Positions 60,141 through 63,415 of a stretch of DNA of 64,000 bases are shown one piece after another. The notes under the pieces were generated by a model. That model was not told the DNA's origin. It made no database searches and worked only from the letters and a program-made list of their open reading frames with translations. How positions within the stretch are numbered: position 1 is the stretch's first letter; each line of letters begins with the position of its first letter. The stretch is taken from assembly GCF_003938655.1 (NCBI RefSeq), contig NZ_RJJT01000016.1:1-64000 (forward strand), read 5' to 3'. Source of the DNA: Rhizobium pisi. Lineage in GTDB: Bacteria; Pseudomonadota; Alphaproteobacteria; Rhizobiales; Rhizobiaceae. A program made the position numbers and the translations under genes.

Positions 60141-61871
60141 TCAGGCCTTGCCGGCCTTCACGTCGAGCACGCGGTTGGCGGCCGAGACGATCGCTTCCAG
60201 CGATGCCGCAACGATGTTGGTGTTGATCCCCGCGCCGAAGAGCTTGCCGCCCGGATAGGACGTTTCGACATAGGAGATCGCCGCGGCATTCGAGCCATGC
60301 TGGAGCGAGTGCTCGGAATAGTCCTCGACCGACATCTCGATGCCGAGATAATGCGACAGCGCGTTGATGAAGCCGTCGATCGGGCCGTTGCCGCGCCCTT
60401 CGATGCGCTTGATCTCGCCATTGTCGGTGATCTCGGCCGCAACGATCCGCTGGCCCTTGCGCTCGGTGTCGGGATAGGTGTGGTGGTCGATGAACTTGAG
60501 ACGGGCATCCGGCTGGGTCACGTAGCGTTCGATGAAGCGGTCATGGATACGCTTCGAGGGAAGCTCCTTGCCCTCCACATCGGTGATGCGCTGGATGTCC
60601 TCGCGGAACTCGACCTGCAGGTTGCGCGGCAGGTTCAGCCCATAATCCTGCTGGAGGATATAGGCGATGCCACCCTTGCCGGACTGCGAGTTGATGCGGA
60701 TGATCGCCTCATAGGAACGGCCGACGTCACGCGGGTCGATCGGCAAATAGGGCACTTCCCAGACCGGATGGTTGGCGACCTGCGCGGCCTTCATGCCCTT
60801 GTTGATCGCATCCTGATGCGAGCCGGAGAAGGCCGTATAGACCAGTTCGCCGACATAGGGGTGGCGCTCTGCAATCGCCATCTGGTTCGAATACTCGAAC
60901 ACGTCCTTGATGTGCTCGATATTAGAGCAATCGATGCCTGGATCGACCCCTTGCGTGAACATGTTGAGCGCCATGGTGACGACGTCGACATTGCCGGTGC
61001 GCTCGCCATTGCCGAAGAGCGTGCCTTCGACGCGGTCGGCGCCCGCCAGCAAGGCCAGTTCGGCAGCCGCGATGCCGGTGCCGCGGTCGTTGTGCGGGTG
61101 CAGCGAGACGATCAGGTTCTCGCGATTGTCGAGGTTGCGGCACATCCATTCGATCTGGTCGGCATAGACGTTCGGCGTCGCCATCTCGACGGTGGACGGC
61201 AGGTTGATGATCAGCTTGTTGTCGGGCGTCGGTTTGACGACCTCGATGACGGCGTTGCAGATCTCCAGCGCCACTTCCAGTTCGGTGCCGGTAAAGCTCT
61301 CCGGCGAATATTCGAAACGGTAGCCGCCGCCTGCCCTGGCCGCCATATCGGTGATCATCTTGGCGGCGTCGACGGCGATCTGCTTGATGCCCTGCACATC
61401 CTTGGCGAAGACGACGCGGCGCTGCAGCTCGCTGGTCGAATTGTAGAAATGCACGATCGGCCGGTTTGCGCCTTCCAGCGCTTCGAAGGTGCGGGTGATG
61501 AGCTCCGGGCGGCACTGTACCAACACCTGCAGGGAGACGTCGGCGGGCACGTTGCCCTCCTCCACGCACCAGCGGGCGAAATCGAAATCCGTCTGCGAGG
61601 CGGAGGGGAAACCGATCTCGATTTCCTTGAAGCCCATCTCGAGCAGCAGCTGGAACATGCGGGCCTTACGGTCGTGGCCCATCGGGTCGACGAGCGCCTG
61701 GTTGCCGTCGCGCAAGTCGACCGAACACCAGACCGGCGCCTTGGTGATGGTCTTGGTCGGCCAGGTACGGTCGGGAATGTTCACCTGCGGATAGGGCCGG
61801 TATTTCACCGCGGCATCGGGCATGCCCTTGGCGGAAGCGTTTGCGGAGGACCGGTTGGTCGGTTTGTCCAT
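60141..61871 (-). CDS. leuA: 2-Isopropylmalate synthase, long form
   Basis: 576 residues from ATG 61871 with GAGGAGA upstream. It condenses 2-oxoisovalerate and acetyl-CoA, the first committed step to leucine. SVDLRDGNQALVDPM and the His-x-His-Asn SLHPHNDRGTG metal site are intact. The C-terminal regulatory domain (from about 440) with GNGPIDGFINALSH should bind leucine. Longer than E. coli LeuA (523), as in the LeuA2-like group. Upstream is a leucine-coding leader peptide with an attenuator stem, so expression should fall when charged tRNA-Leu is plentiful. Confidence 0.96.
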   Translation of the reverse strand: MDKPTNRSSANASAKGMPDAAVKYRPYPQVNIPDRTWPTKTITKAPVWCSVDLRDGNQALVDPMGHDRKARMFQLLLEMGFKEIEIGFPSASQTDFDFARWCVEEGNVPADVSLQVLVQCRPELITRTFEALEGANRPIVHFYNSTSELQRRVVFAKDVQGIKQIAVDAAKMITDMAARAGGGYRFEYSPESFTGTELEVALEICNAVIEVVKPTPDNKLIINLPSTVEMATPNVYADQIEWMCRNLDNRENLIVSLHPHNDRGTGIAAAELALLAGADRVEGTLFGNGERTGNVDVVTMALNMFTQGVDPGIDCSNIEHIKDVFEYSNQMAIAERHPYVGELVYTAFSGSHQDAINKGMKAAQVANHPVWEVPYLPIDPRDVGRSYEAIIRINSQSGKGGIAYILQQDYGLNLPRNLQVEFREDIQRITDVEGKELPSKRIHDRFIERYVTQPDARLKFIDHHTYPDTERKGQRIVAAEITDNGEIKRIEGRGNGPIDGFINALSHYLGIEMSVEDYSEHSLQHGSNAAAISYVETSYPGGKLFGAGINTNIVAASLEAIVSAANRVLDVKAGKA

Positions 61872-61986
61872 TGTCTTGTCTCCTCGTCCCGGCATTTGCC
61901 CCGCCTCTTAGCCGATCGCATCGGGCTTGGCGATAAACAAATGCGGACCTTCGTCGGTCGTTAGGTCAATTTTGAAAATGAGTCGC

Positions 61987-62030
61987 GAGGAGCGATGGCC
62001 GGGCGGGCTTTCGGCCGCCGGGCGCTCCTC
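61987..62030 (-). promoter_or_regulatory. leuA attenuator hairpin
   Basis: On the minus strand GAGGAGCG and CGCTCCTC form the outer arms, with a GC-rich inner stem (CCCGGCGG/CCCGCCCGG type). A TTTTC stretch follows after nine bases. The stem starts at the leader stop codon, so ribosome position on the leader can decide whether it folds, as in classical leucine attenuation. Confidence 0.75.
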
Positions 62031-62154
62031 AAAGGACCCGGCAACCGCGCGTAAGGCCGAGGAGAAGAAGCGAGGTCAGGGCGCGCGTATTGTCACGCAG
62101 GGCGATGCGGCCGCGTGCAATGCTGTCGGAAATCTTGGCGCCAGTGGTCTTCAT
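62029..62154 (-). CDS. leuA leader peptide (leucine attenuation)
   Basis: 41 codons from ATG 62154 to TGA. The peptide begins MKTTGAKISDSIARGRIALR and near the end reads ALTSLLLLGLTRG, with four leucine codons in a row plus three flanking ones. This is the signature of a leucine leader. The ATG lies 7 nt after a predicted -10 box, so the first transcribed base is about the A of the ATG, making it leaderless. The sequence is too short for usual gene finding. The attenuator stem overlaps its stop. Confidence 0.8.
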   Translation of the reverse strand: MKTTGAKISDSIARGRIALRDNTRALTSLLLLGLTRGCRVL

Positions 62155-62161
62155 GGCCGCG

Positions 62162-62190
62162 CTTATAACCTTGGGCGGCGGAACTGGCAA
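62162..62190 (-). promoter_or_regulatory. Promoter of the leuA leader
   Basis: On the minus strand TTGCCA (62185-62190), 17-nt spacer, TATAAG (62162-62167). The leader ATG is 7 nt downstream, consistent with a leaderless transcript. The benE stop lies 26 bp upstream of the -35 box. Confidence 0.7.
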
Positions 62191-62215
62191 GCCCTCGCCG
62201 CGCGCCGGCCTTCCG

Positions 62216-63415
62216 CTACTTCGACGGAGACCGGCCTTTCGCCAACTTGACCAGTTGGGACAGTGCGAGCATCAGCCCGCCCGCGATCAATCCCCAGAAA
62301 GCGCCCGAGATGCCGCCGAAGGAAACACCGGATGCGGTAACGAGGAAGGTGATCGCCGCCGCCTCGCGCGATTCCTGCGCCTGAAAGGCCGACATCGCCG
62401 AGGATGAGAAGGCACCGACCAGCGCCAGTCCCGCCACGGCCTCGATAAGGATGGGAGGCGCCAAGGCGACGAAGGCCGTCATTGCGCCTGCAAGCAGCCC
62501 GAGGATGATATAACCGACACCAGCGATCAGCGATGCCCAATAGCGCCGCTTCGGATCGGCATGTGCATCTTGGCCCGCGCACATCGCCGCGGTGATCGCC
62601 GCCAGATTGACGGCGTGGCCGCCGAAAGGCGCCGACAGCAGCGAGAAGAAGCCGGTGACGGCAAAGAGCGGCCCGGGCTTCGGATCGTAAAGATTGACCT
62701 TGAGAACAGCGATGCCGGGAATGTTCTGCGAGGCCATGGTGACGATGAAGAGCGGCAGCGCGATTGAGATGAAAGCGGCAAAGTTGAACACCGGCCGGAC
62801 GATTTCCGCCGCCGGCACCAGCGATTGTTCGAGCGAGGCGAAGGCGCCGTCGGGAATATCGACGCCGAAGGCAAGCACCAGCACGAAGGCTGCAAGTGCC
62901 GCCGGCACCGCCCAGAGCCGCGTGAAGGCGCCGACGACAATCCAGGAAATGACGATCGGCAGCCCGAACAGCGGATTGAAGCCGATCGCCTTCACCGGCG
63001 CAAAGCAGAGGCCGATTAGCACGCCGGCGAGCATCGCATTGGCGAGCGGCGCCGGAATGGCGGCGACCGCCCGTCCGAGCGGCTTGAACAGTCCGGCGAT
63101 GACGATCAGCCCGGCACAGACCAGGAATGCCCCGACCGCCGCATTGAAACCGCCCTCGATCGCACCGGTGCTTGCGAGCAGCGCCGCACCCGGCGTCGAC
63201 CAGGCGATGCTGATCGGCAATCGGGTGACGGCGCTCAGCACGACCGCGCAGATACCCATGGAGATCGACAGAGCCATCAATCCCGAGGCCGCCTGCGCGT
63301 CCGTCGCACCCACCGCCTGCAGACCATGCAGCACGACGGCGAAGGAGCTGGCGAAACCGACGAAAGCGGTAAGCAGGCCCATGAACAGCGCCTGGACGGA
63401 AAAATCTTTGAGCAT
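62216..63415 (-). CDS. benE: BenE-family benzoate/H+ symporter-like transporter
   Basis: 399 residues with about 12 membrane helices. AISMGICAVVLSAVTRLPIS-like, WSTPGAALL, NAMLAGVLIGLCFAP, and SAPFGGHAVNLAAITAAMC (the NLAA region) match the BenE/NCS2-related family. Benzoate or another aromatic acid is the family substrate; no aromatic-degradation gene is nearby, so the real ligand is open. A short inverted repeat (63511-63531) lies upstream. The start ATG 63415 has only a weak ribosome site. Confidence 0.88.
   Translation of the reverse strand: MLKDFSVQALFMGLLTAFVGFASSFAVVLHGLQAVGATDAQAASGLMALSISMGICAVVLSAVTRLPISIAWSTPGAALLASTGAIEGGFNAAVGAFLVCAGLIVIAGLFKPLGRAVAAIPAPLANAMLAGVLIGLCFAPVKAIGFNPLFGLPIVISWIVVGAFTRLWAVPAALAAFVLVLAFGVDIPDGAFASLEQSLVPAAEIVRPVFNFAAFISIALPLFIVTMASQNIPGIAVLKVNLYDPKPGPLFAVTGFFSLLSAPFGGHAVNLAAITAAMCAGQDAHADPKRRYWASLIAGVGYIILGLLAGAMTAFVALAPPILIEAVAGLALVGAFSSSAMSAFQAQESREAAAITFLVTASGVSFGGISGAFWGLIAGGLMLALSQLVKLAKGRSPSK

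Follow-up and report, generated by a model that had tools for sequence, protein, structure and literature searches.

The leuA gene of Rhizobium pisi is preceded by a conserved leader that we read, from sequence comparison, as an alphaproteobacterial LEU-type element. A probably leaderless reading frame ends in a run of leucine codons, the last of these lies 5 nt before a conserved stem, and this stem, together with a second helix that crosses it, is inferred to form an H-type pseudoknot. This anatomy is fitted better by the LEU element known from actinobacteria than by a terminator attenuator, and the LEU-type reading follows from that comparison. The window examined here is a stretch of 64,000 nt, and the features described within it lie on its complementary strand.

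The leuA gene, encoding 2-isopropylmalate synthase, occupies 60141–61871 (ATG at 61871–61869), and its relatives align over the whole query; its Shine-Dalgarno sequence, GAGGAG, was read at 61880–61885. Upstream, a frame of 41 codons and a TGA (62029–62154; ATG at 62154–62152, TGA at 62031–62029) encodes the leader peptide MKTTGAKISDSIARGRIALRDNTRALTSLLLLGLTRGCRVL, with the C-terminal tail SLLLLGLTRGCRVL read at its coordinates, and the leucine run TCG CTT CTT CTC CTC GGC CTT (SLLLLGL) lies at 62053–62073. The sequence-only reading, an earlier annotation of this DNA made without database searches, had noted such a frame with its leucine run before leuA; its coordinates were confirmed, and the tail and the run recur across Rhizobiales. 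The leader peptides of the relatives are mostly 37–41 amino acids long (range 25–41); their N-termini vary, their tail is constant, such as SLLLLGLTRGCRVx or LLLLGLIGDRRVx, and the alignment across the order found the leucine run conserved, which removes one ground on which the earlier reading might have failed.

Of the 122 loci collected, 42 (L001–L042) had been retrieved by a search with the leader DNA, which would bias a count. Conservation was therefore judged on the 80 leuA loci retrieved with the protein only: 69 of these carry the leader. As these 80 loci are the best of 592 relatives, they represent near relatives. The automatic search found the leader in 68 of them, and L057 carries it too. 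The protein-fetched loci without a leader are L102, which has no upstream DNA, and L112, L113 and L115–L122, which are outside the group. When the loci fetched by leader DNA were included, the automatic count was 108 of 122, and among its 14 misses L036, L037 and L057 do carry the leader. A DNA search with the leader matched 102 of 199 genomes of the family, in 61 of 109 genera, with the matches often covering no more than the end of the leader and the stretch just after it. A covariance model search of the order, whose strict large-search filters may lose weak matches, hit 19 of 297 genomes, with 12 in the family of the window, six in family f11 and one in family f34. The f34 match (L161) was weak and its printed stretch held no leader, and it was counted as chance. 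Within the genome of the window no second copy was found, the next model match having an E-value of 0.8, and a leuA protein of the same type (E <= 1e-50) was present in 1 of 21 genomes from the other families of the order.

The composition of the run points to a reading ribosome. Over the final 16 codons of 75 representative leaders, leucine is encoded by CTT 260 times, CTC 118 times, CTG 28 times, CTA 12 times and TTG once; in the coding sequences of the window, CTG is the commonest leucine codon (652 of 1512) and CTT accounts for 196. The excess of CTT and CTC, both of which are decoded by tRNA-Leu(GAG), gives a Fisher p of about 2e-61, not corrected for kinship, and is confined to the run. 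Together with the conservation of the run, this bias agrees with the earlier view of the frame as a leucine-codon leader of leuA. The spacer between the last leucine codon and the first stem (62048–62052) is also preserved: when no spacing was imposed, the stem that encloses the stop codon began 5 nt past the last leucine codon in 69 of the 75 leaders. The same distance was found in L115, L120 and L121, loci that had been picked by eye, and L112 gave no result. It resembles the spacing of frameshift pseudoknots.

The stem in question, S1, pairs CGGTTGCCGGG (62037–62047) with CCCGGCGGCCG (62012–62022). In the alignment of 75 representatives, its 11 base pairs are paired in every sequence (825 of 825 cells), and one of them varies, being G-C in 47 sequences, A-U in 25 and G-U in three. 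The second helix, S2, is formed by GAGGAGCG (62023–62030), which overlaps the stop codon and adjoins the 3' arm of S1, and CGCTCCTC (61987–61994); 91.2% of its cells are paired, and three of its pairs are altered on both sides among the 75 sequences. When the helices are slid along the alignment, no more than 53.5% of cells are paired; in the register given here the figure is 96.3%. In a shuffle test with five measures, three were exceeded in 0 of 500 shuffles, while the number of pairs changed on both sides (108 of 500) and the number of pair types (66 of 500) were not unusual; many columns of the conserved core are invariant. Because the 5' arm of S2 abuts the 3' arm of S1, the two helices together would make an H-type pseudoknot, with an L1 of 6 nt and an L3 of 17 nt in the window. 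This arrangement was recovered by a strict pseudoknot finder in 66 of 75 leaders compared with 0 of 300 resampled sequences, and 61 of the 66 hits have a junction of 0 nt. RNAalifold, run on the 75-row alignment, returned S1 and three further pairs only, S2 crossing S1. Folded by itself, the leader of the window does not have an unusual minimum free energy (z 0.04); the structural case thus rests on comparison, which supports both helices and from which we infer that they coexist as a knot.

The start of the leader was examined in the same comparative way. The sequence-only reading had placed a TATAAG box (62162–62167) 7 nt before the leader ATG and a TTGCCA (62185–62190) 17 nt upstream of the box; these positions are right, and the spacing recurs across Rhizobiales. 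Three features stand out over 105 nonredundant loci: TTGC at -36 to -33, found in most of them, TATA at -13 to -10, and a C (95%) at -1. Motifs resembling a Shine-Dalgarno sequence precede the leader ATG in two of the 105. As the ATG in this set had been picked partly by the -10 box, the test was repeated on the 38 of 75 representatives with a single in-frame ATG. In these leaders TTGC is found at the same positions, C occupies -1 in 95%, and a blind promoter search placed a -10 box 5–9 nt 5' of the ATG in 26 of 38. Tetramers like a Shine-Dalgarno sequence occur in 1 of the 38, compared with 37 of 74 at leuA, where the start had been picked partly by that sequence. It is therefore well supported by the sequences that the leader is translated from a 5'-terminal AUG, the leaderless start without a Shine-Dalgarno sequence that had been proposed: the distance between promoter and ATG is fixed. 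For Sinorhizobium, the accessible text of one study gives 171 mapped leaderless transcription start sites (PMC3616915), and the available parts of two others describe trpL as leaderless (PMC7298713, PMC10117765); neither PMC3616915 nor PMC10117765 has the word leuA in its main text. In addition to trpL, these genomes would have another leader peptide that is probably leaderless.

The mode of control assumed in the sequence-only reading fared differently. That reading had set the stop codon on a GC-rich hairpin followed by a T stretch, and the conserved GC-rich structure at the stop is upheld, but the T stretch is not: in the interval from +20 to +75 relative to the stop, 3 of 105 leuA leaders have a T5 run. 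The eight nucleotides after the picked helix contain 1.64 T on average (105 loci, in a few of which, for example L020, L022 and L101, another helix was picked), and the sole T-rich piece in the window, ATTTTC at 61979–61974, starts 8 nt past the stem and is not conserved among relatives. A terminator scan of 61850–62230 found none (shuffles gave a mean of 0.7), and a 1:2 pause or protector helix was undetectable, falling below 0.05 in 1 of 75 leaders with a median of 0.355. The trpE leader served as a positive control and shows GGCGGC and T6 in 12 of 12 genomes of the genus. Set against this T6-bearing leader, the lack of a conserved U-tract and the empty scan led us to reject an intrinsic terminator as the conserved read-out. 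Attenuation by such a terminator, as originally proposed for leuA, is not supported, and the sequence predicts no terminated leader product; a released leader RNA acting in trans, also raised in the sequence-only reading, is hypothetical. A leucine-rich leader with a GC-rich hairpin, in other words, need not mean a transcription terminator.

The enterobacterial leu attenuator has a canonical terminator, unlike the rhizobial leuA leader. The two share leucine control codons in the leader peptide of a leu gene (PMC6123439). The trpL/rnTrpL leader of Sinorhizobium and Rhizobium, so far as the accessible parts of PMC7298713 and PMC10117765 describe it, is likewise a leaderless leader peptide 5' of a biosynthetic gene. 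It differs in its hairpin with T6, and in a stop codon that precedes the antiterminator arm, whereas the stop of the leuA leader lies inside the S1 loop. In the genome from which the window comes, the trpE leader (L126; outside the window, at around 70 kb on contig C7) encodes the peptide MITSLNIAVWWWAR, has a canonical hairpin and T6, and is separated from the leuA leader by about 8 kb. Mycobacteria have leaderless poly-Cys attenuator ORFs, reportedly described by Canestrari et al. in 2020. As leaderless upstream ORFs that end in a run of the sensed codon, they resemble the present leader, judging from the accessible parts of PMC13236596, PMC4633059 and PMC9094748, but they sense cysteine and are likened here by ORF layout alone, not by RNA structure.

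The closest counterpart is found in actinobacteria, and leuA of Lentzea and Saccharothrix did appear among the protein relatives (66–67% identity). As described in the available part of Seliverstov et al. 2005 (PMC1262725), the actinobacterial LEU element lies 5' of leuA and comprises an ORF with a leucine run, a pseudoknot and a base stem between the run and the Shine-Dalgarno sequence; the position, the ORF with its leucine run and, probably, the pseudoknot are shared by the rhizobial leader. The Streptomyces lividans leuA leader peptide (LeuL1) is leaderless as well, and no typical Rho-independent terminator accompanies it in the accessible text of PMC8079986. There are also differences: the leader here has 41 codons versus 15 in S. 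lividans, the arm sequences differ, and the distance from the stop of the upstream ORF to leuA is about 150 nt in most loci here compared with 75–80 nt. The LEU element of PMC1262725 also has an alternative hairpin; the candidate counterpart here, the inner hairpin considered below, is not the same one. As for the base stem, in the window the leucine run (62065–62058) is complementary over 8 nt to 61886–61879 at the leuA Shine-Dalgarno sequence, but when compared with synonymous variants this pairing fell below 0.05 in 9 of 74 leaders, and in 2 of 74 with variants using CTT and CTC only, so that it is not supported as a general feature. Own against swapped partners gave 23 of 2000, a figure confounded by kinship, and in the actinobacterial control the base stem fell below 0.05 at 11 of 32 loci.

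The actinobacterial set of 33 loci was made up of four from the protein relatives and 29 best-matching ones (from the best 30 matches, with 71 of 79 genomes matched), and these are the loci nearest to Lentzea rather than a random draw. An unanchored pseudoknot finder gave a hit in 19 of the 33 compared with 4 of 165 resampled sequences, several of its S2 picks having loops of 36–49 nt. A scan that imposes no distance but requires a stem enclosing the stop placed the stem 5 nt past the last leucine codon in 26 of the 33, with six at other spacings and one without a candidate; an anchored scan (29 of 33) was not used for the spacing because it imposed 5 nt. The Rhizobiales covariance model matched the actinobacterial leaders weakly (best E 0.087), and for this reason common descent of the two groups of leaders is put forward only as a suggestion from the sequences. 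The shared 5-nt spacing alone is modest evidence, as few lineages are independent, and convergent design is possible. It is nevertheless a tentative proposal of ours, held with less than even confidence, that the leuA leaders of Alphaproteobacteria and Actinobacteria are one ribosome-gated device, in which the last leucine codon of a leaderless leucine ORF is kept at a distance of 5 nt from the stem of a pseudoknot. The knot would then act as a brake on the ribosome at the sensing codon, and the switching of leuA would involve no intrinsic terminator.

On balance, we lean towards a leucine-charging sensor of LEU-element type as the control of leuA, though not by much. The transcript would begin with the A of the leader ATG or with a neighbouring base, as the promoter suggests, so that ribosomes would bind an AUG at the very 5' end and would use no Shine-Dalgarno sequence. 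The ribosome would read 27 codons and then the run of mostly CTT and CTC leucine codons, the last of which would lie 5 nt before an H-type pseudoknot holding the stop codon in its first loop. When charged tRNA-Leu is scarce, the ribosome would stall on the run and, with the last CTT in its A site, would stand directly before the knot; when leucine is ample, it would open S1, terminate within the loop and leave. leuA would be expressed in the stalled state. How the state of the leader might reach leuA is a more doubtful matter, for which access to the leuA ribosome-binding site, by analogy with the base-stem proposal in actinobacteria, is our best single guess, albeit one that is more probably wrong than right; Rho-dependent or U-poor termination would rank next. 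Masking of the Shine-Dalgarno sequence by the freed leucine run, through the 8-nt match given above, is possible.

Three other explanations were weighed against this sensor. Classical ribosome-mediated attenuation, in which S1 would be the antiterminator and S2 with an inner hairpin (CCGGCGG with CCGCC or CCGCTGG) a U-poor terminator, would account for the leucine run and for a stop codon enclosed by the structure. The inner hairpin and S1 compete because they draw on the same bases; the hairpin beats shuffles (below 0.05) in 19 of 75 leaders with a median of 0.085, and shows matched changes such as CCGGTGG with CCACCGG; two alternating hairpins instead of a pseudoknot are thus possible, and a few lineages are T-richer after the stem (4–5 of 8 in five loci, besides the three leaders with T5). 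However, a U-tract is not conserved at leuA, though trpL of the same genus keeps its T6, no terminator was found by the scan, the 1:2 helix fell below 0.05 in one leader only, and the first bases of the S2 5' arm would be hidden under a ribosome standing at the stop. We therefore regard classical attenuation as unlikely. Read-out by Rho, with the naked RNA up to leuA serving as a loading site after release at the stop, seems to us unlikelier still: the empty terminator scan would suit it, as would the roughly 115 nt from the S2 3' arm to leuA in the window and the slight surplus of C over G in the 45 nt after S2 (13.3 versus 9.3; 72 leaders), but the surplus is small and the figure comes from leuA leaders alone.

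The conserved core might instead bind a protein or a ligand, with the leucine codons secondary, a view that the authors of PMC1262725 took of the actinobacterial element. The many invariant columns of the core would agree with this, and the available part of PMC1262725 argues for a regulatory protein because leucine-codon mutants of Streptomyces did not fit attenuation. The confinement of the CTT/CTC bias to the run and the fixed 5-nt distance nevertheless point to a reading ribosome, and Rfam gave no match at gathering, with three sub-threshold matches at E up to 10; we consider a binding site improbable, the least favoured of the three. The mechanism of the actinobacterial LEU element has long been open, Streptomyces leuA mutants being at odds with classical attenuation in the accessible text of PMC1262725. 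Rhizobia are easily handled and would offer a second lineage, one in which the distance from codon to stem hardly varies, and this makes the question testable.

The novelty of the rhizobial element is our reading of a limited literature. Vitreschak et al. 2004 is said to be the likeliest print source for rhizobial leuA attenuators. Among the titles and abstracts listed in a limited search, which did not take in that study, no paper on a rhizobial leuA leader or LEU element appeared. Among 17 wider proteobacterial leuA leaders, three gave candidates (spacings 4, 5 and 6), four gave none and ten were unplaceable with the motif used. The best matches to the Rhizobiales model from outside the group were leuA upstream regions labelled Rhodospira and Roseospira (L113:1849-1944, E 0.073; L116:1866-1959, E 0.023), both with an 11-bp stem like S1. 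One contig labelled Dechloromonas aromatica, from a metagenome-assembled genome (L111), carries a Mesorhizobium-like leuA with the leader and is probably mis-binned.

Directly 5' of the leuA Shine-Dalgarno sequence, a second stem pairs GCATTTG with CAAATGC (61944–61938 with 61898–61892, complementary strand). Matched changes in this stem, for example CATTCGC with GCGAATG, are seen in some Rhizobiaceae, but as a general feature it reached 0.05 or less against resampling in just 6 of 70 leaders and is thus clade-limited. Its 3' arm contains an ATG (61893–61895, complementary strand) that is in frame with leuA, 24 nt 5' of the start used here, and out of frame in some relatives.
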